Positions 1 to 25,787 of a DNA stretch of 25,818 nt are shown here, in pieces. The stretch spans positions 1 through 25,818 of the IMG/VR virus record IMGVR_UViG_3300032304_001933; one strand, written 5' to 3'. Numbering within the stretch: the stretch's first letter is position 1; each line of letters opens with the position of its first letter. The notes under the pieces were generated by a model. It made no database searches, was not told the origin of the DNA, and saw only the letters and a list, made by a program, of their open reading frames with translations. Position numbers and translations under genes: made by a program. The DNA comes from a virus.

Positions 1-627
1 CAAATTCCAAGACTTGTTGAGCCATTTTTTGACTAGGTCAGAACTGGTATTAACTTGTTTTGCAATGTCACAAATTCTCAAACCGGTTTTTCTTAACTCA
101 TGAATTTGATTGTATTGTTGTTCACTAAGGGCTCGGCGTGTCATAGCACGTTTAACAATTTGTTCTTGAGTCCATTTTACCCAGGGTTTTTTCATGCCCT
201 TGTGTGCATCAGATATCTTTTTACGACTTTCTGCTGACTGTTTTTTTCCTGCCGCCCGGACGTAATTTTTTGGTTTTCCTTTAAGTGCTAGGCTACGAGC
301 CAAATTAGATTCAGCTGACATTTTTATGTCGTTGTTGCCATCTCCTCCTCTGGTTGCATTATATCCCTTGTCATAGGATTCAAACAGTTTGATGTATTCT
401 ATTTCTTTTTGTTTTGCTAAATTTTTGTCATTGACTTCTTCAAGAATTTCTTGAGTCCAGCAATCTATTCCATATTTTCTTATAGCATTGTAAAATGGTC
501 GATTGTCTTGATTTTTTTGTGCCAGCTTTTTGTGTTGGTGCCATCTTGCATCAAAAGATTGACTGGTCCAGCCTATATAGGACTTGTTTGTAAGTTGATT
601 TGTGATTTTGTAGATTATAGCCGTCAT
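1..627 (-). CDS. GIY-YIG homing endonuclease, 3' end cut by window edge
   Basis: Reading from the ATG at 627 to the window edge gives 209 codons with no stop, so the gene is partial. The N-terminus carries a GIY-YIG nuclease domain: IIYKIT at 4-9, SYIGWT at 16-21, R28, a catalytic-type Glu in the KEIEYIK helix (75 or 77), and N90 in GYNATRGG. Residues about 114-150 look like a NUMOD3 DNA-binding repeat (SAESRKKISDAHKG). Residues 165-205 look like a helix-turn-helix (NUMOD1-like, DIAKQVN..SDLVKKWL). This is the usual architecture of free-standing T4-type homing endonucleases, which cut intron- or gene-less alleles to spread themselves. A TAAATA box lies 4 nt before the ATG, and a hairpin covers the start codon. 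The target site cannot be told. Confidence 0.88.
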   Translation of the reverse strand, partial: MTAIIYKITNQLTNKSYIGWTSQSFDARWHQHKKLAQKNQDNRPFYNAIRKYGIDCWTQEILEEVNDKNLAKQKEIEYIKLFESYDKGYNATRGGDGNNDIKMSAESNLARSLALKGKPKNYVRAAGKKQSAESRKKISDAHKGMKKPWVKWTQEQIVKRAMTRRALSEQQYNQIHELRKTGLRICDIAKQVNTSSDLVKKWLNKSWNL

Positions 628-653: not shown

Positions 654-1499
654 TCACCAGTTCTTACAACTCCAATATCTGGCTTTTAATTTGCTGCCCG
701 GATTGTCGCAGTTATGTCTTGCTCTAAAACTTTTTCTAGCCGCAGGATTAGACTTTCTAATACGCATGGTTTTTTGACCTAGTCTCTTGGCTGTCTTACC
801 GCCGTGGCCAAAGTTTACTTTTTTAACATTGCCTGTGGCAGGATCTTTGACATAGACTTTAAATTTGGCCTGATCTCCAGGCATCTTTTTGTTTAACTGA
901 ACCTCGCGGCCTTGATACTTGGCCTCATCAAGGTCGCCCATGATAGCGTTCCAAAATTCACGGATCCATTCTTCGTCGCCGTACTTGTCCACAAACTGTT
1001 CAAGTGTCATGCGTTCCGCATCACGCCACATGAGTTCCTTCATCTGGCCTTCTTCCATGGGAATTGGTTTGACTGCGGCCGAGGCTATGTTTTTTTCTAA
1101 ATCTTCAATGTTGCCTTCATTAACTCCATGCACGCCATCCCAGAATTCACCTAACCACTCGTCACCACCGTAATAATCTATAAAATGTTCGCGGCTCATG
1201 CGCTCGGCCATTTCCCACATTTGATGTTTTGTCTGCCCTTCACCCACAAGACCACCGTAGCCCATGGTTTCCAGTACAACATTTGAATCACCTTCGTCGG
1301 TGTCTTCCAAGGCAGCCCATTGTTCCAACACAGCCATGATTTCTGGAGTGGCATCCAACAAGATACAGTCGTCGGCTACTTCTATGATGTAGGTTTCTAC
1401 CAAGGTGTCATCTTCAAATTCAATGGCAAACACATCACCGTCGGCTGGAGCATGCATCCATGATTCTGATTCAGCTATGTATTCTCTCAGGCTTTTCAT
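654..1499 (-). CDS. Putative internal head protein with capsid-targeting-like N-terminus and basic C-terminal domain
   Basis: This 281-aa protein starts MKSLREYIAES, very close to the T4 capsid-targeting sequence (MKTYQEFIAE, cut by gp21 after I/L-x-E). I infer that it is packaged in the prohead and trimmed after E10. Residues about 20-62 are acidic. Two copies of a 34-residue motif follow (87-120 and 150-183). The last ~75 residues are basic and end in a conserved-looking block (FRARHNCDNPG then KARYWSCKNW). I recognise that block from many T4-like marine phages, probably DUF5872, of unknown function. The start overlaps the upstream stop as ATGA (1496-1499), so the two genes are translationally coupled. 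It is the last gene before the GIY-YIG gene. The function after packaging or injection is unknown. Confidence 0.75.
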   Translation of the reverse strand: MKSLREYIAESESWMHAPADGDVFAIEFEDDTLVETYIIEVADDCILLDATPEIMAVLEQWAALEDTDEGDSNVVLETMGYGGLVGEGQTKHQMWEMAERMSREHFIDYYGGDEWLGEFWDGVHGVNEGNIEDLEKNIASAAVKPIPMEEGQMKELMWRDAERMTLEQFVDKYGDEEWIREFWNAIMGDLDEAKYQGREVQLNKKMPGDQAKFKVYVKDPATGNVKKVNFGHGGKTAKRLGQKTMRIRKSNPAARKSFRARHNCDNPGSKLKARYWSCKNW

Positions 1500-3175
1500 T
1501 GTGCTTTGTAGTTTTGATACAGTCTAAACAAATCGTTTTCAATTTTAACCGACTCTTCCATTGAAACTTGTCTGCGCAATTGGCTGGCAATGACAGGAAC
1601 AGTTGTTTGACCTGTGCTCTTGGGGCCGTTGAGTCCACCTGAGTACTGCAAGGCATCATCACTGGTTTCTGTGTTGGTTGGCCAATCTGGCGAATTCTCA
1701 TCCAGTTCTTCCTCGCAACCACAGGGTGTCTGGCCACAGGTGTCACAGCTTTCTGCGTCGCTGTGACCGCCAATGCCGGCCATCTTTAACAATGCAGCCA
1801 ACTTGTCGGCATCTTCGCCATCAGCTGATATTGTGATATTCTTGCCGGGCTCGCCATTGGGACTGGTGTTCATGTTTACACTGATGTTCATGCCTTCTGT
1901 GAGAGCTTGTTTAAATTTACGATCTAAACTTTCATACACTCCGCCGCCAAAGTTGTAGCCACCTGAAGATTTTTTCTCCTTGGGTGCTTCGGCATCAGCT
2001 TCTTTGACTTTCTTTGGCAGACCCGTTTCTTTGGTCTTGGCAAACTTTTTGAGTTCACCCTTGGGCATCCGGGCCATTTCTTTACTAGCGCCACGCAGTT
2101 CTTTTTTAGGAATCTCACCTTTTTGTGCGGCATGTGCAATGCCAGCGGCTCTGCGTTGTGCCACGCTGACAGCTTTTTCAGCAATAGTATTATCTGCGTC
2201 GTGCCGTTCTTGATCCATGTAGTCATTGGCTGTCTTGATATAGTCAAGTGCCTTGGTGATCTTTGATTGCACCCACTCTGGCAAGTTGTCATCGTCGGCT
2301 AGAATTCCATGCAGTTCTTTGGCAGCCTTGACCAGGGTGTGTAGTTGATCTCGGGCCATGTCGCCTTCTTGATCATATTCACCTTTGTCTGTGAGTGACA
2401 CTGCGTCCATCTCTTTGATACTGTCTTTGCTCATCAACTTGCTCTGGCCTGTAGGGCCTTTGGCGCCAATGGCACGCTTGGTACCAGTGGGACGACCTTT
2501 TTTCTTGGGTGCATCTGTTGCCACTTCGTCATCTGTCTCGGCCTCAGGTTCTGGCTTGCGAGTATAACGCTTGCTGTAGCCTGTGTCCTTGACATCATAA
2601 CGACTGCTGTCATCTTTGTGTGCAAACATTGATTTGGCCACTTCAGGATCAAAGGCTGTGCCTTTGCTTCTTGGCTCTTTCTTTTTTTCTTCCAGACCCA
2701 TTGGATCTGCTTCGCTCATTTTCTTTTTGTCAGCGGCAGCCTTTTTCATTGACTCTTTACGGTTGCCATCCTTGTCGAGATCGATGTAATCAGGTTTAGC
2801 AGCTTCTTTGACAGGATATGACTTGCCGTCTACTTTGAATTCTTTGGCGCCTGGCGCACGGGCCTTGACCAGTTCGCCTGAGAACTCGTTGCCTTCTTCC
2901 ATGTCGGCTTCTTTGACGCCTTTGCGTAGTTTGGCCAACACAGCACCAGCTACACGTTCGCCGGCGGCCTTGCTACCGTATTCTTTGCCTGCTGATTTAG
3001 CAATCTTTGAAAACATCTTGCCAGGCTTGCCAATGTCTTTGCCAGCAGCAGCTTTCTTGGCTGAATAGTCACCGGTGCTGGCTTCAGCAACAGCGGCGCT
3101 TTCAGTCAGTTGTTTAGCATCTTGTTTGGCAGATAAATCCGCCAGTTTCTTGTTTAGGTTGTGAAAGAAATCCAT
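1496..3175 (-). CDS. Large charged phage protein of the internal-protein cassette, function unknown
   Basis: This 559-aa protein is very rich in Lys, Glu, Ala and Asp and of low complexity for most of its length. It opens with an amphipathic segment (MDFFHNLNKKLADLSAKQD) followed by LTE at 23-25, which fits the I/L-x-E rule for gp21 cleavage. Residues 477-487 hold a tight cysteine cluster (C477, C480, C485, C487) that could bind a metal. The C-terminal ~70 residues (ENSPDWPTN, DDALQYSGGLN, TVPVIASQ) look like a block conserved in T4-like cyanophage structural proteins. The Shine-Dalgarno GAGGA precedes the ATG, and only 4 nt separate it from the upstream gene. I infer a virion or prohead-associated role from its neighbours; no enzyme motif is visible. 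Confidence 0.7.
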   Translation of the reverse strand: MDFFHNLNKKLADLSAKQDAKQLTESAAVAEASTGDYSAKKAAAGKDIGKPGKMFSKIAKSAGKEYGSKAAGERVAGAVLAKLRKGVKEADMEEGNEFSGELVKARAPGAKEFKVDGKSYPVKEAAKPDYIDLDKDGNRKESMKKAAADKKKMSEADPMGLEEKKKEPRSKGTAFDPEVAKSMFAHKDDSSRYDVKDTGYSKRYTRKPEPEAETDDEVATDAPKKKGRPTGTKRAIGAKGPTGQSKLMSKDSIKEMDAVSLTDKGEYDQEGDMARDQLHTLVKAAKELHGILADDDNLPEWVQSKITKALDYIKTANDYMDQERHDADNTIAEKAVSVAQRRAAGIAHAAQKGEIPKKELRGASKEMARMPKGELKKFAKTKETGLPKKVKEADAEAPKEKKSSGGYNFGGGVYESLDRKFKQALTEGMNISVNMNTSPNGEPGKNITISADGEDADKLAALLKMAGIGGHSDAESCDTCGQTPCGCEEELDENSPDWPTNTETSDDALQYSGGLNGPKSTGQTTVPVIASQLRRQVSMEESVKIENDLFRLYQNYKAQ

Positions 3176-3179
3176 TTGT

Positions 3180-3788
3180 TTATCCTCGTGGGTTGCCGCC
3201 GGTGGCTGGGCGTGGTGGGCGTTTTACTTTGGTCATTGGGCTACTTGTTCCCATGGGCAAATCGTTTGTGGTTCGAGCTGGCGGTGTCTTGCCACCAGCC
3301 ACAGTAAACTCACTGCGGTAGGCATTCTTCAACACAGCATGATCATGTGGTGCAGCCGAATAATCTTTGCTGAGTGCTTTTTGTTCTGCGTCGGGTGCAG
3401 GGTAGTCTGTGTCTGTGAGTAGGTCTTTGTTTTCGTCCGCAATCTTTTCTTTTTCGTCCATCATGCTGTCTTCATAGGGAACAGTCAACATACGGACGCG
3501 GTTTGGATCAAGCCCCAAGAGTTGAGCAATCTGTTGAATCTGTGGCTCAATGGCTGGATAGCGGAATTCGCAGTCCATGGCGCTGACGCTTTCATTGGCG
3601 GCAGCCGGAAAGTCTGCGGGCTTGAGTTGAATGGGTGTCTTTTTTACAGCAGACACTTTGACTGGGTCAAACTGTTTTAGCTTTTCTTCCAGCATTTTAA
3701 TCAAAGCGGGCTCAACGTCACCTACAATTTTGATTCTGTAGTTGTAAGTTCTTTGGCTTTCGGCCAGGTATTCTTGAAAATTTTTCAT
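3180..3788 (-). CDS. Putative internal head protein with capsid-targeting-like N-terminus
   Basis: This 202-aa protein begins MKNFQEYLAES, matching the T4 capsid-targeting consensus (MK..QEF/Y I/L-A-E) with a gp21-type LAE|S site. Residues 14-70 could form a small alpha/beta domain (YNYRIKIVGD, a charged helix, then VSAVKKTPIQL). Residues ~75-105 hold EFRYPAIEPQIQQIAQLLGL and a short VPYEDS segment. The remainder is Pro/Ala/Asp-rich and probably disordered, ending in a basic Pro-rich tail. It is preceded by its own late box (CATAAATA, 18 nt upstream), which uses the TAA stop of gp16, and by an AGGGA ribosome site. It heads the three-gene cassette down to 654. I do not recognise a biochemical function; packaging into the head is inferred from the N-terminus. 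Confidence 0.75.
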   Translation of the reverse strand: MKNFQEYLAESQRTYNYRIKIVGDVEPALIKMLEEKLKQFDPVKVSAVKKTPIQLKPADFPAAANESVSAMDCEFRYPAIEPQIQQIAQLLGLDPNRVRMLTVPYEDSMMDEKEKIADENKDLLTDTDYPAPDAEQKALSKDYSAAPHDHAVLKNAYRSEFTVAGGKTPPARTTNDLPMGTSSPMTKVKRPPRPATGGNPRG

Positions 3789-3806: not shown

Positions 3807-3814
3807 TATTTATG
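3807..3814 (-). promoter_or_regulatory. T4-type late promoter CATAAATA
   Basis: An exact CATAAATA octamer lies 18 nt before the ATG at 3788. Its TAA (3812-3810) is also the stop codon of gp16. It should drive the internal-protein cassette 3788-654. Confidence 0.75.
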
Positions 3815-4298
3815 CTTTTGTATTGTTTTGGTCCTTGGACCCTTTGATCATTTCCAACAAATCGTTACGACTCAACACCTGTCCGTGTGCTGTTTGTGTG
3901 GGCTCGTCGCCTTGCACATCGCGGTCCAATTTGACTTTTTTCATCTGCAACTCAACCATTTTGAGCTTTTTGTTCAGCTTGGCTGTCTTGGCTGTGAGCG
4001 CATGGCCCAGCATGGTTCCGGCCACTGCAAATATTTCACTGGCATAACGGCTGTCCACATTGAAGCCCAGGTCCATGAGATTGTCAAAGGTTTCTTGTGC
4101 TTTCGTGGCCAGGTCGTCCATTTCGGCATCACTGGCATCCAGCCCGCGCACTGCCGGCAGGGCCGCATCGATCTTGTCTATGGTAGCATCAATCTCTTGT
4201 AGCTGAATTTGGGTGGCAGGAACCGTGGCGGGTTCAGTGGTTTCGCTGTCGTAACCACTGGGTGGCAAATCAAAAAACTCCTCTAATTTTCTCGTCAT
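3810..4298 (-). CDS. gp16: Terminase small subunit gp16
   Basis: The 162-aa length matches T4 gp16 (about 164 aa). The acidic N-terminus opens with EEFFDLPP, as in T4-like small terminases. The central helical region (about 78-135) aligns by eye with the T4 core: SRYASEIFAVAGTMLGHAL against the T4 segment RHMEVFATLMGQM, followed by a Lys-rich coiled-coil stretch (KLNKKLKMVELQMKKVK). The family forms a ring that recognises concatemeric DNA and regulates the packaging ATPase gp17. It follows gp4, and the gp4 stop codon is part of its late box (GGTAAATA), which lies only 5 nt before the ATG. No clear Shine-Dalgarno site is visible. gp17 does not follow it here, unlike in T4. Confidence 0.8.
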   Translation of the reverse strand: MTRKLEEFFDLPPSGYDSETTEPATVPATQIQLQEIDATIDKIDAALPAVRGLDASDAEMDDLATKAQETFDNLMDLGFNVDSRYASEIFAVAGTMLGHALTAKTAKLNKKLKMVELQMKKVKLDRDVQGDEPTQTAHGQVLSRNDLLEMIKGSKDQNNTKA

Positions 4299-4303
4299 AA
4301 CCC

Positions 4304-4311
4304 TATTTACC
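4304..4311 (-). promoter_or_regulatory. Late-box GGTAAATA before gp16
   Basis: The TAAATA core (4309-4304) starts with the TAA stop of gp4 and ends 5 nt before the gp16 ATG. A transcript from it would be nearly leaderless. The match is to the core only, so it is less certain than the CATAAATA sites. Confidence 0.5.
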
Positions 4312-4747
4312 GGCCGTTTTTGCCAGGTGTGTGGAATATGTCTTGCTCAGTCATGACTCTAAAAGTCAGACCGTTTCTTTTGCACCATTTTTGAGCTTCA
4401 GCCCATTTGGCATAATTTATGGCCACTTGCGCACGGTCTCGTTGACTTTGTCGTTCTTCTATGATGCTTTGTTTTTTGGGTTTGATCTCGATCATTTCGG
4501 CACGCATGGTATTGTCGCGCCCGCGGTAGGTCACAATAAAGTCGGGCACATACATGCTCTGCTTGCCTGTGATGGGATTACGGTAAGGTATGCTGACACC
4601 TTCGCTGGCCCATTGTAGAACATGGTCGTTGTTGTCACAAAACATCATAAAAGTCATTTCCCAACCTGAGCGATATTTTGGCTTGCCCAGACCCACATAT
4701 TTGTGTGGGTTTTTTATTTCGTAAAATCCTTGTCGGAAGTTAGGCAT
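4307..4747 (-). CDS. gp4: Head completion protein gp4, nuclease-like
   Basis: The 146-aa protein resembles T4 gp4 in length and motif order: an N-terminal FRQGFYEIKNPHKYVG, then YRSGWE (E30), LQWASEG, VPDF (D69) and IEIKP (E87, K89). The E...PD...ExK layout is that of a TnsA-like/PD-(D/E)xK nuclease fold. In T4, gp4 works with gp2 and gp50/65 at the head portal to finish DNA-filled heads before tails join. It lies 1 nt downstream of the 120-aa gene and directly before gp16, so it is probably cotranscribed with the tail genes upstream. The start is weakly supported: GAGAG lies upstream of two close ATGs. Whether the nuclease is active cannot be seen. Confidence 0.85.
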   Translation of the reverse strand: MPNFRQGFYEIKNPHKYVGLGKPKYRSGWEMTFMMFCDNNDHVLQWASEGVSIPYRNPITGKQSMYVPDFIVTYRGRDNTMRAEMIEIKPKKQSIIEERQSQRDRAQVAINYAKWAEAQKWCKRNGLTFRVMTEQDIFHTPGKNGR

Positions 4748-7055: not shown

Positions 7056-10000
7056 TTATACTGATTGGCTAGCAATTTCCCCAGTGTTCTTGATACGAAC
7101 CGGAATGTAGATAAACTCCACTGCTTTCACAGGTTCGATAGCAATATCCACATAAAGTTCGTTGCGGTCTATTCTTGTTGGTGTGTTGTTGGTCAAGTCA
7201 CAAACCACCAAATAGTCGTAGATACCACGCTTGGCCACCAAATCAATCATCAAGCTGGTTATGGCATTGGTAATTTCGTTGCGTGTGATCTGATCGTTTG
7301 GTTCAAACAGGAACTGTTTGGCAATGCTTTCTAATCTTCCACGAACAAAGGCCACCAAGCGTGCCACGTTGATGCGATTCAAGGCCGAATCCAGGCTGGT
7401 CAAGGTCTTGTTACCAAAGTTGGTAATGCCCACTCCTGGTATGAACGTGATTGGATTGATGCGATTTTCGTACAACACATCACGAAGTCCTTGGCGTACT
7501 CCAATGCTTTCAAATTCACCTGTGGCGGCGTTGATGTAACCAATCTGTGTGGCATTGTCTATGACACCACGGCGTGTTCCTGCAGGAGCCAGCCATGGAT
7601 ACGCCACTTCATCGCTGCGTATGATAGTGCGGATCATCATGTGACTGGGTGGTTGAACCACTGGTGATCCCGACAAGTCTGTGGTCTGGCAGCTAGGATA
7701 GAATGTGCCAGCATAGATGCTGCCTGTGGTCAGACCATCCTGGGAAGGTAGACCCAGTCCGTCGTTGTTGGTTGCCCAAGCAACTACTTCCTCAGGTGTC
7801 AATCGCAACGGAGTATCGGCTATCACAAATGCTGTGTTGTTGCGCTCGTTGTTGAGTGCCACTAGATTTGCTGTGAGTTCTGGATACTGTGGGCATGAGA
7901 TCAAGTTGTAGATCAGTTGTTCTTCTCTGGCTGTGGCGCTGGCATCAATGCCGGCCTTGAGAGCCGCAACTATGATTGCTCGTTGTGCTTGGCGACCCAT
8001 GTAAGGACTACCGTCGTCCCGGTTGCCACTTTGAGTTACCCAGGCATTGGTCACTGTGGGCAAGGTGTCATCTGGGAATGTGGTTGAATTAAAGTAATTG
8101 ACTTGGAATGATTTGACATTGAATCCGCTTCTACGAGTGTTCCACAACAAAGTACCTTGTGGATACAGGCTAGCATCAGGAGCATCCAGATCTAGATAAG
8201 AACTTGTGATCAACGGAGTTGCACCTGTGGCAATAGGCGGAATTGGGTCAGTGATAGGATCGGTGTTTCCATTTGGAGCCCATCGTGCGTCAGCAAACAA
8301 TATGCCATTGACTGTGGTTTGATCGGTATTGTCAATCAACGCCCATTGATCATTACCATCCACGTTGCTCCAACGATAGATCACCGGATAGTTTTCTAAA
8401 TCACTGGTGTCAATCCAAAGGTCGCCATAGACCAGGGGACTTTGGCTGTCGTCGGTCTGTGTGGTAGGTGCTGTGGCACTGAAAATAGGACCAGTTGCAT
8501 TGGTCAAGGTCAAATTGTCACCTCGTGCGTCGTTGCTGACAGTTTGGTAACCGAGCCAAGATCCATTGTTTTGAATCATGATATCAGCTTGATCTGTCGC
8601 ACTGTAATACCATAAACGTCCATCTGCAGGATCTTGATCCGGCGCAGTGCCACTGGCGGCGTAGGTAAATGTAGGAGTGGTTACCCAGTTACTGAGAATT
8701 GCATAGGTTGGCACATAGTTACCGTAACGAACACCCCTGGTAACTCCAGCAGTAAATCCTGCTGCTGTCAAAGGTGTAAAACCGTTGTTGCCTGGGTAAT
8801 AGAATATATCGCCGCCTTCGGCATGTGTAAACACAATGGCTCCGGCACTGTTTTGTGTCACACTCACCGGTGTTCCACTGGGCAGGGCAGCACTGATTGA
8901 TGTCAAAAAGTCCGCCACTGTGGTGCCGGACAAGGTGACCACTACATTGACGTTGTTTTGTGACCCAGAAAAAGTATAACCCAAGGTAAAGGTGTTGCCA
9001 GCAATAAATGGACCAGGTGTAGTGTCACCGCCGGTGACTATGGTAGGACCAGCGGCGTATCTTTCTAGTATCAGAAAACTGGCTGTTTGTTGCAGTGGGC
9101 TGAGATTAGTTGGCTGGTGTGAATAGGCATCCACCTGTGCATAAGTTGCTCCAGCTGGAATATTTTGTCCGCCGCCGCTGGGGTCCAGACCAAAAAGTGC
9201 AGCACTGTCGCTGCTGTAAACTGGACAGGACTGTTGTACAAAGGTTCCCAGAGTAGAGTCGAATTTTTTGACCACTATGTTGGCGCCCAAATTCACATTG
9301 TTCATTTTGATCCAAACTGATCCAGTGGGCTCAGGTTGTGTGTCTGTGGTTCTCCAACGTGGTGCTTGATAACTGAAGGCACTCAAGTATTCTGGTGCTG
9401 CATACTGTCCAGCTGTGATACCCAGGGTGGCCAGGGGTGTGCCAGAGACGTTGTTGATGGCAATCACACCAGTGCCTTCGGTGCTGCCGTCATTGGTTGC
9501 AGTGCCATCGGCATAAAGATTTAATTTTCCACCAATCACAGCCGCATACACACCAGCGATGGCAGATGAGTTGATCGCATCAGCCAGACCATCTACAGTG
9601 GGATCTCCGCCTGGCACAGCCACAGCGATATCGTTAATGGCAATGCTGTTGCCTGCTGTCAGCGAAGCTGGTGCGTTGGTTCCTTGTATGGTGGCCCAGG
9701 CTGTTTTCCAATCGTCACTTCCAACCAAGACCCAGGTGTTGTAAAGATCACTAAGTGCAATGGCACTGGTTTGAGTAGAGGTAGGACCTCCGCGTTTGTA
9801 ATAAATTGGGTTGAATGTGCTGGTTGCAACCACAGCATAATCGCCCTCGTTGCCAATACTTTGCAAGGGCACAGTGCTGGCAGGTTCTAGATCTGCTGTG
9901 CTGGTGATTACTGTGGGAATCTGGTTGGTAAACGCTGCCGTGGTCTGATTCCACTGAAAAATTCCCCAGGCTGTGTTGGCTGTATCCAACCAATAGGTGT

Positions 10001-10397
10001 TGTTGTCAGGATTACCAGTGGGGCGTACCAGGGTGGCTGTGAGTTCGGTCAGATCAATGTCAGCACGCTGAACATAACAACGGTTACTAATACCCAAGGC
10101 ACTCCAGGCGGCCAGCAGGCCGTATTCATTGAGCTCATATCCATTGATAGGAGTTCCGGCTGTGGTCTTGTAAAAGAATGGCACGCCAAAAGTTGCGCTG
10201 AGATCACGTTGACTGGTGATCAAATAGGTCTTGTTGGCATTGGCCGCTAGTGTGCCGGCAGCTACTCCTACTCCAGAGCCCGAAACTTTGTTCTGAGCCG
10301 TGACTAATAAGACATAAGGAACCGAGTTGGTAGCGGCAGGAATATACTGACTTTCGTCAATGATTGTGACTTCTACGCCTGGTGATGTAAGTGCCAT
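7056..10397 (-). CDS. gp18: Tail sheath protein gp18, greatly enlarged
   Basis: At 1113 aa this is far larger than T4 gp18 (about 659). The N-terminus (MALTSPGVEVTIIDESQYI, YVLLVTAQNK) and the last ~290 residues (from GRQAQRAIIVAALKAGIDAS to VEFIYIPVRIKNTGEI) are classic contractile-sheath core. This includes the C-terminal region with LDSALNRINVARLV, QFLFEPND and DLVAKRGIYDYLVVCD. Between about 160 and 800 lie several inserted beta-rich modules. One resembles the flagellin/hook IN type (VDGLADAINSSAIAGVYAAV ... LNLYADG ... LGITAG), with a weaker second copy further on. There are also Trp-rich modules (GRLWYYS.., GDLWIDTSDLENYPVIYRW). Inserted sheath modules face outward in T4, so these probably decorate the tail. 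A CATAAATA promoter and AAGGA site set the start. Confidence 0.93.
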   Translation of the reverse strand: MALTSPGVEVTIIDESQYIPAATNSVPYVLLVTAQNKVSGSGVGVAAGTLAANANKTYLITSQRDLSATFGVPFFYKTTAGTPINGYELNEYGLLAAWSALGISNRCYVQRADIDLTELTATLVRPTGNPDNNTYWLDTANTAWGIFQWNQTTAAFTNQIPTVITSTADLEPASTVPLQSIGNEGDYAVVATSTFNPIYYKRGGPTSTQTSAIALSDLYNTWVLVGSDDWKTAWATIQGTNAPASLTAGNSIAINDIAVAVPGGDPTVDGLADAINSSAIAGVYAAVIGGKLNLYADGTATNDGSTEGTGVIAINNVSGTPLATLGITAGQYAAPEYLSAFSYQAPRWRTTDTQPEPTGSVWIKMNNVNLGANIVVKKFDSTLGTFVQQSCPVYSSDSAALFGLDPSGGGQNIPAGATYAQVDAYSHQPTNLSPLQQTASFLILERYAAGPTIVTGGDTTPGPFIAGNTFTLGYTFSGSQNNVNVVVTLSGTTVADFLTSISAALPSGTPVSVTQNSAGAIVFTHAEGGDIFYYPGNNGFTPLTAAGFTAGVTRGVRYGNYVPTYAILSNWVTTPTFTYAASGTAPDQDPADGRLWYYSATDQADIMIQNNGSWLGYQTVSNDARGDNLTLTNATGPIFSATAPTTQTDDSQSPLVYGDLWIDTSDLENYPVIYRWSNVDGNDQWALIDNTDQTTVNGILFADARWAPNGNTDPITDPIPPIATGATPLITSSYLDLDAPDASLYPQGTLLWNTRRSGFNVKSFQVNYFNSTTFPDDTLPTVTNAWVTQSGNRDDGSPYMGRQAQRAIIVAALKAGIDASATAREEQLIYNLISCPQYPELTANLVALNNERNNTAFVIADTPLRLTPEEVVAWATNNDGLGLPSQDGLTTGSIYAGTFYPSCQTTDLSGSPVVQPPSHMMIRTIIRSDEVAYPWLAPAGTRRGVIDNATQIGYINAATGEFESIGVRQGLRDVLYENRINPITFIPGVGITNFGNKTLTSLDSALNRINVARLVAFVRGRLESIAKQFLFEPNDQITRNEITNAITSLMIDLVAKRGIYDYLVVCDLTNNTPTRIDRNELYVDIAIEPVKAVEFIYIPVRIKNTGEIASQSV

Positions 10398-18360: not shown

Positions 18361-19692
18361 TCATGTTCCAGAACCTGTAATAGTATTCCACTGAGTAGCG
18401 CCGCGAACCTGCATGCCTGTGCCCGTGACAAAAATCATCATACCAGCAACAGGGCTGGATATTGTGCTATCTCTTACTGTTGTATTGGCATAGACTGGAA
18501 GTCTGAAGCTAGTTGTACTGTTTATATTATTACCTGTAATATTGCCAGTACTGCTCATAATACCGGCTGTTAACACATTGCCACCAGTTACGTTGCCAGT
18601 GGCACTGATCAGGCCACCAGTTAATATGTTTCCATGTATTCCATTGCCAGTACTGCTCATAATACCAGCTGTTAACACATTGCCACCAGTTACGTTGCCA
18701 GTGGCACTGATCAGGCCACCTGTCAAGACATTGCCAGCAAACGTGGTATTACCAGCGGCATTACCAATGTTTATGGTTGTCGCACCACCACCCATCTGTA
18801 TGGTGGTAGGATTGACATTGCCAATGAAGAATGTAGATATTCCAACAGGAGTTCCAATTCCACCATTTCCCACATGGACTCTAAAGGCATCAATGTTGCC
18901 TGTAGCAGATATGTTACCGGCGGTTGTGATGTTGCCTGCGGATGAAATCAATCCGCCTGTTAAGACATTACCGCCAGTGATGTTGGCTGAACTGGTTATG
19001 GTACTGGTGGCACTGATCAAGCCACCAGTTAATATGTTTCCATGTATTCCATTGCCAGTACTGCTCATTATGCCGGCAGTTAAGACATTACCACCAGTGA
19101 TGTTGGCTGAACTGGTTATGGTTGAAGTGGCCGAAATCAATCCACCTGTCAATACGTTGCCTGCCGTGACGTTGCCAGTACTGCTCATAATACCAGCTGT
19201 TAACACATTGCCACCAGTTACGTTGCCAGTGGCACTAACCAGGCCACTAGTTAATATGTTTCCATGTATTCCATTGCCAGTACTGCTCATAATACCAGCT
19301 GTTAACACATTGCCACCTGTGATATTGCCTGACCCACTGATAGTTCCAGAAATTTTCAGTCCAATGTTGGACAACTCAAACACATTTATGGTTCCACTGA
19401 TGTTGCCAATGATGTTGCCATTGACCACAGGCACGTTTAACGAACTGGTGCCATTGGACAATTGGCTGGCTGCACCCACGTTACCGGCAGCAATAACTCC
19501 GGTTAGTCCTGCACCGTTGCCAATGAAGAAGTTGCCAGTTACGTTGCCAGTGGCACTGATCAAGCCACCTGTGAGCAAGTTACCAGCTTGTACGTTGCCA
19601 GAAACGTCCAGATTGCCGTCCACGTAGATCGTGCCAACTCCGCTGTCTACTGAAATATACCAATCGTCGCTGATGTTTTTGTAGGTGGCCAT
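18361..19692 (-). CDS. Repetitive fibre-like virion protein
   Basis: This 443-aa protein is rich in Gly, Asn, Thr and Ser. Residues 37-387 hold at least 12 copies of a ~17-residue unit of the type GN[VI]LT[GA]G[LI][IM]S[AS]TGN.. . Some copies carry a 6-residue insertion (TITSSA), and the array is broken once by a non-repeat block around 265-310. The regular Gly/Asn turns suggest a beta-helix or trimeric beta fibre. The C-terminal ~55 residues (FRLPVYANT, VAGMMIFVTGTGMQ, GATQWNT) match the end module of many phage tail-fibre and appendage proteins. It has a CATAAATA promoter 21 nt before the ATG and an AGGAT site, so it is a late structural gene, possibly a whisker or side fibre. Host receptor binding is inference. 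Confidence 0.75.
   Translation of the reverse strand: MATYKNISDDWYISVDSGVGTIYVDGNLDVSGNVQAGNLLTGGLISATGNVTGNFFIGNGAGLTGVIAAGNVGAASQLSNGTSSLNVPVVNGNIIGNISGTINVFELSNIGLKISGTISGSGNITGGNVLTAGIMSSTGNGIHGNILTSGLVSATGNVTGGNVLTAGIMSSTGNVTAGNVLTGGLISATSTITSSANITGGNVLTAGIMSSTGNGIHGNILTGGLISATSTITSSANITGGNVLTGGLISSAGNITTAGNISATGNIDAFRVHVGNGGIGTPVGISTFFIGNVNPTTIQMGGGATTINIGNAAGNTTFAGNVLTGGLISATGNVTGGNVLTAGIMSSTGNGIHGNILTGGLISATGNVTGGNVLTAGIMSSTGNITGNNINSTTSFRLPVYANTTVRDSTISSPVAGMMIFVTGTGMQVRGATQWNTITGSGT
18532..19584 (-). repeat. Tandem 51-nt / 102-nt direct repeats inside the fibre-like gene
   Basis: The 17-codon unit repeats about 12 times. Near-identical blocks recur with a 102-nt period (for example starting at 18541 and 18643, and again at 19171 and 19273). 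The DNA identity is high enough to allow recombination between copies. Confidence 0.85.
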
Positions 19693-23461: not shown

Positions 23462-24658
23462 TCATGAGAAACTAAGGTTCTGGACAGCGATTTCTCCGAC
23501 GTAGTCGGCGGCGTTTCCGAAACTTGATGCGGTGTTTGTCAATTCGACAAAACCGTATCTTGTCATGAAACTTACGACTGGTTCGAAGGTTGTTGGATCA
23601 AGTACAACACCTGAGCTCATTAAAGGAATATATGGGCAATAGAACGCGGCAGCATCTGCCTCGCTGGTGCCCTTATAACCTACCAACACACTGGCTGTGT
23701 CAGCAGCATAAGTGTTGACAAATATACGCATAGCACCGTTGAGTGTACCAACAAACTTGGTGTTTGTGGGTGCTTCAAATGTGCCTTCTGTGGTTCTAGC
23801 AAAAGCACTTGTTGTTGCACTTTGTAACACTGTCAAACTTGCAGGACTTACAACAGCCCAGTTGCCAGCGCCACGACGTGTACGCTGAGCGATCAAGTTA
23901 GCAGTACGGTTGATCAACACTGCCAAAGCGGCATGCTCATCACCCACAAATGTTGCTGTACCACTTACAGTAGCTTGGTTGTATGTGAACTCTGTTGCAG
24001 CCAAGGTGCTCAAGGATAAAAGAATCTCTTGATCAATCTCAGCTGTGATCTCTTGTGCAAGAGCAGCCATGATTTCTGCTTCAACGTCAATGCCATGCAT
24101 GGCTTGTGCGTCTTGTGCAGATTCAAATGTCCAACGAGCTTGTAACTTGCGTGTCTTGGCTTCAACTGCTTGCTTCAAGATTTGTACGCTGATTTGCTTA
24201 CCGCCTGTGCCTTCCATTTGGGCTGTGAAGCCACCAGTGTAACCTGTGGCTGTACCAGTAGCTTGTGGCACAGTGGAATACGCTGTAGCAATGGTGAATG
24301 GGCTCAACGCTTCTTGACCAGCTGTTACACTTGTTTGAGCCAAGCTGTTGTCAGTCAAGCTCTGTGCATAACGCACACGCAGAGTGTGGATTTGACCCAC
24401 AGGACCTGTCATTGGCTGTACGCCTACCAACTCGTTGGCGATAACGGTTGGCATTACACGACGGATCACTGGCAGAATCACACGGTTTAATGTAGCGATG
24501 TTGCCAGCTTGTGTGGAACCCGAACTTGCATTCTCACGCAAGTATTTCTTGGTATTTTCGAGGATAACGGACATGGATGTACGCTTGGAGCCTGATAAAC
24601 CCTCCAAGAGTGCGTCTTTAGTTTCGTTCCAACGACCTTCTAATAATTCTTGTGACAT
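23462..24658 (-). CDS. gp23: Major capsid protein gp23
   Basis: This 398-aa protein follows gp22 as in T4. It is shorter than T4 gp23 (521 aa). The prepeptide carries a gp21-type cleavage site, L40-R41-E42|N43, followed by the conserved NIATLNRVILPVIRRVMPTV and NELVGVQPMTGPVGQIHTLRVRY segments (in parts of 20 or fewer). Later come the EITAEIDQEILLSL helix, RTRRGAGNWAVVSP and VLVGYKGTSEADAAAFYCPY, then the C-terminal FMTRYGFVEL. These are hallmarks of the family. Mature gp23 would therefore lack the first 42 residues (65 in T4). AAGGAG precedes the ATG. It is probably transcribed with gp22 and ends at the intrinsic terminator at 23386-23409. Confidence 0.95.
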   Translation of the reverse strand: MSQELLEGRWNETKDALLEGLSGSKRTSMSVILENTKKYLRENASSGSTQAGNIATLNRVILPVIRRVMPTVIANELVGVQPMTGPVGQIHTLRVRYAQSLTDNSLAQTSVTAGQEALSPFTIATAYSTVPQATGTATGYTGGFTAQMEGTGGKQISVQILKQAVEAKTRKLQARWTFESAQDAQAMHGIDVEAEIMAALAQEITAEIDQEILLSLSTLAATEFTYNQATVSGTATFVGDEHAALAVLINRTANLIAQRTRRGAGNWAVVSPASLTVLQSATTSAFARTTEGTFEAPTNTKFVGTLNGAMRIFVNTYAADTASVLVGYKGTSEADAAAFYCPYIPLMSSGVVLDPTTFEPVVSFMTRYGFVELTNTASSFGNAADYVGEIAVQNLSFS

Positions 24659-24686: not shown

Positions 24687-25787
24687 TTACAGCCCTGCCA
24701 AACGCTTTAGATCGATCACGTTGCTGGTTTCCTCAGCTAGTTGATCTGCATCTGGACTGCGGGCAGATTTATCGCCAGTTGCTACGCTGATGGATTCTGT
24801 GATTGCTTTACGGGCTTTCACATGACCTTCGGCGAGGACAGCTGGTAGATACTTTTCAAAAGCTGTGCTCAAACGTGTTGTTTGTACGCTTTCGAGCAAG
24901 TTCTTCATGATTTCGCGCTTCTCTTCGTTGAGAGGAGCCAGCAATTCTTCCATGGCGCTTTCGCGTTGATTGGATTCCTTGATCATGCGGATCTCGCGTT
25001 CTTTTGATTCAACCAGAGTTCGTGCTTTCCGGGTGAACTGGACGGCTTCAGCCAACTTGGCATCCTTGGCAGCAATGATGTCATGCAACTTGCGTACTTC
25101 GGCTTTCTCATTGAGATGAGTTGCGCCAAATTCTGCGGCGTATGCTTCAAAGATTCTACGACCAAAATTGTTCTCGCGAGCAACCTGGATGTCTTCTTTG
25201 AGTTGGTTGAGTTCGGCCTTGAGATGTGTGCTAACAGCAGTGGACATTTTCTGGGCGCTTTCTGTGACGAAACGTGCCTTGAGTTGTTCCAACTTGGTGC
25301 GAGCTTCTGCCACCAAACGGACCTTGGTTTCCACCACGTCACGTTTGTCTTGGGCAAATTCTTGAATCTCGCGTGCAAGAGCCTTGACAACAAAGCTTTC
25401 TAACTTCTCCATGCCTTGATTGTGTGTCTTGCGGTCACGGCGCAGTTCGCCAATTTCTTCGGCCAGTTTGGTGATCATGAAGTTGTTGAACTTGGTTGCA
25501 TCTTCTTTGATCCGGGCTTGAAAACGAACGCGGTCTTCGGCCAGTGCAGACTTTTCAGCTTGCACTGCTTGGACTTCTGCGGTGAGACCTTCTGTTACCA
25601 TACGATCCAGGGCTTCCACCATCACTGATTTGTCATGCTCATAGCGTTGTGCAAACTCTTCGCGGAGTTCTGCACGCACTTGTTCGCGAGCTTCATTTAA
25701 CTTGGATTCCCAAGCCTCAGAAATTTCTTGCTGAGCTTCTTCGCTTAATAGTTCGCTATCTAGTAACGGTTTAATAGCATCTAACAT
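24687..25787 (-). CDS. gp22: Prohead core scaffold protein gp22
   Basis: This 366-aa acidic and basic mixed-charge protein is almost wholly alpha-helical coiled coil, longer than T4 gp22 (about 269 aa). Family features include ESKLNEAREQVRAELREEFA, YEHDKSVMVEALDRMV near the N-terminus, and the C-terminal region with FEKYLPAVLAEG and VIDLKRLAGL. It forms the inner core on which gp23 assembles, and gp21 later digests it. Several I/L-x-E sites for that protease are present. It lies 28 nt upstream of gp23 in the same direction, as in T4, with AGGAG 8 nt before its ATG. Portal gp20 and protease gp21 would be expected just beyond the window end. Confidence 0.92.
   Translation of the reverse strand: MLDAIKPLLDSELLSEEAQQEISEAWESKLNEAREQVRAELREEFAQRYEHDKSVMVEALDRMVTEGLTAEVQAVQAEKSALAEDRVRFQARIKEDATKFNNFMITKLAEEIGELRRDRKTHNQGMEKLESFVVKALAREIQEFAQDKRDVVETKVRLVAEARTKLEQLKARFVTESAQKMSTAVSTHLKAELNQLKEDIQVARENNFGRRIFEAYAAEFGATHLNEKAEVRKLHDIIAAKDAKLAEAVQFTRKARTLVESKEREIRMIKESNQRESAMEELLAPLNEEKREIMKNLLESVQTTRLSTAFEKYLPAVLAEGHVKARKAITESISVATGDKSARSPDADQLAEETSNVIDLKRLAGL

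Follow-up and report, generated by a model that had tools for sequence, protein, structure and literature searches.

Do the three genes that follow the small terminase gene in this phage DNA encode proteins that enter the head in the manner of the internal proteins of phage T4? The stretch analysed (the window) comprises 25,818 nucleotides, positions 1 to 25,818 of IMG/VR record IMGVR_UViG_3300032304_001933, and is a fragment of a T4-superfamily giant phage genome whose nearest relatives are viral-metagenome contigs of up to 353 kb. The three genes lie on the minus strand, as do the head, neck and tail genes described below, and encode p202 (3180..3788, 202 residues), p559 (1496..3175, 559 residues) and p281 (654..1499, 281 residues). 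We consider it probable that they form a late operon for virion, most likely head, proteins, of which p202 and p281 would be targeted by a T4-type signal and cleaved by a gp21-type protease. An earlier reading made from the sequence alone had proposed such a capsid-targeted cassette, and overall it is partly supported. Its open reading frames and the starts MKNFQEYLAES (p202) and MKSLREYIAES (p281) were confirmed, as was the close spacing: 4 nt separate the p202 stop from the p559 start, p559 and p281 share 4 nt (ATGA), and the small terminase gene (3810-4298) is directly upstream.

Two peptides with the spacing of the T4 capsid-targeting sequence

The T4 internal proteins IPI, IPII and IPIII carry an N-terminal 10-residue capsid-targeting sequence with hydrophobic residues at positions 4, 7 and 8 and Glu10 before Ser or Ala, and p202 and p281 share this arrangement in the candidate targeting peptides MKNFQEYLAE|S (3756..3788) and MKSLREYIAE|S (1467..1499), where the bar marks the predicted cut. 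In IPIII mutants, targeting depends on residues 4 and 7 and processing on residues 8 and 10, and a protein with Asp10 is not processed and still targeted (PMC9026906). The targeting positions are occupied by F4 and Y7 in p202 and by L4 and Y7 in p281, and the putative sites LAE|S and IAE|S both end at position 10. The sequence-only reading gave MKTYQEFIAE as the start of T4 internal proteins; in the T4 record this holds for IPII and IPIII, while IPI starts MKTFKEFTSTTTPVSTITE. The p202 peptide is identical to MKTYQEFIAE at 6 of 10 positions, with conservative changes at 3 more.

A search of six large relatives for the strict pattern with T4 spacing, M[KR]x[FYL]x[EDQK][FY][ILMV]xE, gave 8 matches among 3054 candidate starts, every one of them p202 or p281, and the K/R-anchored 9-mer occurred three times in 447,080 internal positions (rate 7e-6). 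Judged by these counts, the resemblance of the two N-termini to the T4 signal goes beyond chance. As with the T4 proteins, unrelated bodies stand behind similar peptides, and an S77/gp21 protease is present (here in relatives). The bodies of the T4 proteins seem unrelated to those of p202 and p281; phrog_2667, which represents T4 internal head protein bodies, gave a match of E 0.36 confined to residues 1-42. The T4 proteins are also variable, basic and unlinked to terminase, whereas p202 is conserved beside terminase genes and the cassette proteins are neutral to acidic (isoelectric points 6.2 for p202, 7.1 for p559 and 4.9 for p281).

Among 118 distinct p202 relatives there is little or no variation at residues 2, 4, 7, 8, 10 and 11, in contrast to residues 3, 5, 6 and 9, which vary; Glu10 is kept in all 118, at overall identities down to 28%. 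Because the scans of sequence collections for these relatives included residues 1-8 among their search patterns, columns 1-8 carry a selection bias, from which Glu10 and Ser11 are free. The most divergent relatives retain 64% identity in residues 1-11 and 23-24% elsewhere. The pattern of conservation in p202 is that expected of a targeting peptide. An AlphaFold2 model built from a deeper alignment, which replaced a poor first model with a predicted local distance difference test (pLDDT) score of 55, reached pLDDT 69 (core about 80, residues 1-10 58) and places a lower-confidence helix (residues 4-11) before a ferredoxin-like core (residues 14-107). A modelled fold that starts at residue 14 would agree with a detachable peptide and does not prove one. 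Fold searches returned ferredoxin-like/S6-like structures (best Z 8.6), a match to a widespread fold that points to no function.

Relatives of p281 were retrieved through neighbouring genes without use of the p281 N-terminus. An alignment of the 20 members that start MK and are shorter than 300 residues shows no variation at M1, K2, Y7 or E10. The bodies of p281 and p202 are otherwise unrelated, and what the two families have in common is invariant K2, Y7 and E10 together with a hydrophobic residue at position 4. The p281 protein is modular: its C-terminal 90 or so residues (191-281; RKSFRARHNC...YWSCxxW, 657..932) match the full 96-residue domain of phrog_7595 (E 9.5e-11). Domains of this type occur in Pelagibacter, Roseobacter, Flavobacterium and Methylophilales phages, and in the cultured phages examined their gene neighbourhoods differ and the N-terminal module of p281 is missing.

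Protease, predicted substrates and probable late expression

Of 16 records searched, 13 contain an S77/gp21 prohead protease, among them all seven cultured phages and every contig longer than 220 kb; the relatives G001-G005 and G008 have it. Within the window, gp23 has a predicted gp21 site, LRE|N (24533..24541), whose L-x-E is retained in the clade (YL[RK]E|N) and in phage PA5oct (FLVE|N). The gp22-like scaffold (24687..25787; phrog_10922, E 2.2e-82) contains twenty L/I-x-E sites and is homologous to the genes that follow gp21 in relatives. On these points the sequence-only reading is supported: the clade has both the protease and the gp23 site, and the PA5oct homologue of p202 carries a virion annotation.

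The middle protein, p559, is Lys/Ala-rich, matches Pfam DUF3008 at residues 335-390 (E 3.8e-14) and is a predicted protease substrate. It had been counted as a third capsid-targeted protein; its N-terminus, MDFFHNLNKKL (MxFFxDLNKKL in relatives), holds no T4-type targeting peptide, and only p202 and p281 match the T4 spacing and key residues. The LTE reported near its N-terminus is indeed there (LTE|S, residues 23-25, 3101..3109). An [LI]xE lies at residues 13-45 in 111 of 112 relatives, against a shuffled mean of 29 and maximum of 46; the position shifts among relatives, mostly within 20-25, and since these proteins are homologous the retention in 111 does not represent 111 independent events.

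Ahead of p202 stands a T4-type late promoter motif, cATAAATA (3807..3813). The motif cATAAATA or a close variant was present in 87 of 93 distinct p202 upstream regions, nearly always at a distance of 17-20 nt from the start, which makes late expression of the operon probable; the window holds 7 such motifs against 2.2 expected.

PDB sequence searches with p202, p281 and p559 gave no match, and no catalytic or effector domain was detected in the three proteins by Pfam, PHROG profile and PDB sequence searches. Pfam matches to p202 and p281 (KdpC 0.12, MGAT4A 0.15) were set aside as noise.

In a separate observation, an LxxLAG[ILV]-like motif recurs at the C-terminus of the scaffold (24687-25787), in p559, in PA5oct gp281 and in other neighbouring head proteins; it may be a core-binding motif.

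Homologues in virions

Residues 1-136 of p202 match positions 1-140 of the 179-position profile phrog_14802, 'virion structural protein' (E 1.9e-6). The statement that no role had been assigned to these proteins was therefore not quite right, as PHROG 14802 is classed under head and packaging, although the entry gives no mechanism or targeting role. In PA5oct, both the p202 homologue gp282 and the next gene, gp281, in the place of p559, are annotated as detected by electrospray ionization tandem mass spectrometry (ESI-MS/MS), and the homologues RaK2 ORF047, that of XaC1 and 121Q gp557 are annotated as structural. PA5oct gp282, RaK2 ORF047 and 121Q gp557 occupy the same gene position as p202. 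Packaging of p202-family proteins into virions is well supported, indirectly, by these homologue annotations.

A second virion protein offers a parallel. The cytidylyltransferase T4-GC190 is a core protein of cyanophages and was detected in S-SM1 virions (PMC3037559). The S-SM1 protein (SSM1_190) starts MKKFSAFLNE|AERSF, which fits the T4 spacing perfectly; in Syn9 the counterpart gp184 starts MKKFSAFLSE|A and is the sole tag match. T4-GC190 thus resembles the p202 homologues in having a T4-spaced N-terminus on a virion protein, with an unrelated enzyme body. The openly accessible papers that were searched mention no such tags beyond the T-even phages.

A wider set of tagged proteins

A looser search in relatives recovered further genes, mostly starting MRAxEF[IVL]xE. 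The looser tag was present at 29 of 3054 starts as against 6 of 7963 internal Met residues (p 2e-11), and three genomes analysed with the pattern already fixed gave 14/1237 against 3/3227 (p 4e-6). Given an aromatic-aliphatic pair, Glu came next but one at 29 of 73 N-termini and at 6 of 78 places inside proteins (p 2e-6). A scan of viral contigs with a DNA pattern for MRAxEFIxE returned at least 95 matches; of the matches listed, 93 began reading frames of 40 or more residues, and these fall into at least 23 groups with no detectable mutual similarity beyond the tag. Domains recognized by profile in tagged proteins include GNAT (6e-13), GH19 (1e-14), ParB-like (7e-10), T7-type kinase (phrog_15752, 8e-10) and DUF6321 (3e-18).

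The 9-residue tag MRAxEF[IVL]xE is carried in relatives G001-G005 and G008 and in L285-L363. A suspicion that phages lacking a T4-type head carry it as well was checked: the six tag-bearing contigs longer than 150 kb all have both S77 and gp23. Both genes are missing from 14 smaller fragments (53-129 kb), perhaps but not necessarily as a result of fragmentation; five small fragments were read, four of them with tagged genes and T4-like by eye, and the one that was unlike (G029) without a tagged gene.

The wider set is a more interesting lead than the cassette itself. The 9-residue (MRAxEF[IV]xE type) and 10-residue (MKxFxxYLAE type) tags could be a general capsid-loading code of uncultured giant T4-type phages that directs a modular repertoire of enzymes (GNAT acetyltransferases, kinases, ParB-like, GH19), much larger than the few internal proteins of T4, to the head and from there to the host, a tentative idea that we are a little more inclined to doubt than to accept. 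Because the 9-residue tag lacks the hydrophobic position 4 of the T4 signal and differs from it in spacing, we infer rather than observe that the two are equivalent. Among the 93 MS-detected proteins of PA5oct, tag-like N-termini are not enriched (4/93 against 11/350, p 0.39), which counts against the mechanism favoured below for the cassette and means that PA5oct does not demonstrate the code for its lineage. Little is known, as far as we are aware, of the proteins and other cargo that large phages deliver along with their DNA. If the tags are capsid-targeting signals, N-termini alone would suffice to predict packaged proteins in uncultured phages, the T4 mechanism would be general in this group, and named candidate enzymes would be open to testing for early host takeover.

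Several tagged proteins have features of their own. The L294 protein at 2992-3609 joins the tag immediately to a twin-arginine translocation (Tat)-like signal (MRAVEFIAEIDRRGFLGALGAGAMAAAG) and has a GH19 domain; it is possibly a packaged enzyme re-exported by the host, or the tag is possibly just the n-region of a signal peptide. Repeated 'QGVAEG' linkers (V-x-E-G) separate the domains of G004 64466-66094 and other large tagged proteins and are possible prohead-protease sites in polyproteins. A tagged family of 123-133 residues ending SPVxxFKGYPR lies between p281/p559 and gp17 (G001 325384, G004 263121 and 263489, G003 127896) and had no match in cultured phages. The Cys-rich body EGWSxKYKxSIxCSxPKGFSQRAHC follows MKTFKQFQE in cyanophages (L427:901-1020, L428:901-1056) and MRANEFVTE in giant phage G004 (54208), an apparent exchange of tags.

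Proposed mechanism and alternatives

In the mechanism that we favour, hydrophobic residues 4 and 7 of p202 and p281 would bind the prohead core, a gp21-type S77 protease would cut both proteins after Glu10, and the folded bodies would remain beside the DNA inside the head. The p559 protein would be packaged along with them and trimmed at the L-x-E about 25 residues in. Capsid targeting of p202 and p281 is likely from their N-terminal residues, and processing likely in the clade of the window; head location, core binding and cleavage are what we infer for the cassette proteins.

Several observations weigh against this mechanism. The gp21 gene is outside the window, which ends just short of where it is expected. 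At least one of 27 p281 members seen lacks the site (L089, YIQQAE), and several relatives have Met at position 8. In p202, conservation runs beyond residue 11 into residues 14-20 and so is not, on its own, proof of a cleaved tag. Among cultured homologues, position 10 is E in Atu_ph07, Vibrio 2.275 and 121Q, D in RaK2, A in PA5oct and XaC1, and S in Phosso, so that the homologue check proposed earlier succeeded for the hydrophobic positions 4 and 7, which are kept in all of them, and failed in part, for Glu10 in RaK2, PA5oct, XaC1 and Phosso, which weakens the sequence-only reading. The PA5oct protein is found in virions without Glu10, and cleavage is therefore not essential for the p202 family; obligate cleavage, to judge from these homologues, is not general. 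Targeting without processing is compatible with the PA5oct case because T4 Asp10 still targets. Finally, the MS annotation does not distinguish head from neck or tail.

Much of this would also follow if the N-terminal helix were a permanent docking helix to a head, portal or neck partner, never removed, with an incidental L-x-E. For phages without Glu10, such as PA5oct, a docking helix fits equally well as uncleaved targeting: the helix is retained in cultured jumbo phages while position 10 varies, the PA5oct homologue reaches virions without a site, and the conservation up to residues 14-20 is accommodated. What a docking helix does not explain is the invariance of Glu10 in the 118 relatives, of the same positions in the unrelated p281, and the genome-wide N-terminal enrichment of a P1 Glu, and we regard it as unlikely. 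A role at the portal has been weighed too, with p202 and p559 as packaging or neck accessory factors acting with gp4, gp16 and gp17 and a coincidental likeness to the tag. Conservation of p202 beside terminase does argue for a role in the head or in packaging. The p202 homologue and the following protein(s) come directly before the large terminase gene in Phosso, Atu_ph07 and PA5oct, which puts the pair between the two terminase genes, in RaK2-like phages the pair comes directly after gp4-gp16, and such conservation across distant phages is not a property of T4 internal proteins. Coincidence would leave unexplained the identical tag positions on p281, the tagged proteins far from the locus, and a strict pattern confined to the cassette at so low an internal rate; we hold this account to be quite unlikely. 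A further alternative develops the sequence-only reading, which suggested a candidate set of injected effectors on the model of the anti-restriction protein T4 IPI: the cassette would encode injected effectors of host takeover or anti-restriction, like T4 IPI and Alt. T4 proteins that bear the capsid-targeting signal are ejected with the DNA (PMC9026906), and the occurrence in relatives of variant tags on proteins of the GNAT, kinase-like, ParB-like and GH19 types points the same way. For the cassette, this proposal did not hold up well and seems quite unlikely: p202 belongs to a conserved locus, where it stays beside terminase even in distant jumbo phages, and is no accessory gene, whereas the T4 internal proteins vary; and the Pfam, PHROG profile and PDB sequence searches detected no catalytic or effector domain in the three proteins.

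Gene order and flanking genes

On the minus strand the window encodes the gp22-like scaffold, gp23, other genes, a gp13-like protein, sheath, two tube-like proteins, a 120-residue protein, gp4 and gp16, followed by p202, p559, p281 and a GIY-YIG-like open reading frame. The gp4-like head completion/closure protein (4307..4747) matches phrog_218 (E 1.4e-40), and the gp16-like small terminase (3810..4298) matches phrog_16202 (E 1.9e-14) and phrog_445 (E 1.5e-5). The GIY-YIG-like frame (1..627), assigned by eye, is a probable homing endonuclease whose N-terminus is nearly identical in relative G001 (324440-325072); it lies downstream of the cassette and is no member of it. Longer contigs of relatives continue downstream of this region with more small genes and, after them, a terminase-like locus. 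The tail sheath protein at 7056-10397 has 1113 residues and is far longer than T4 gp18 (659 residues). A 443-residue protein made of short repeats (SATGNVTGGNVLTAGIMSSTGN) is encoded at 18361-19692. In relative G013 (C1:193317-194306), one in-frame TAA, whether from an intron, an error or recoding, lies within the match to gp23.

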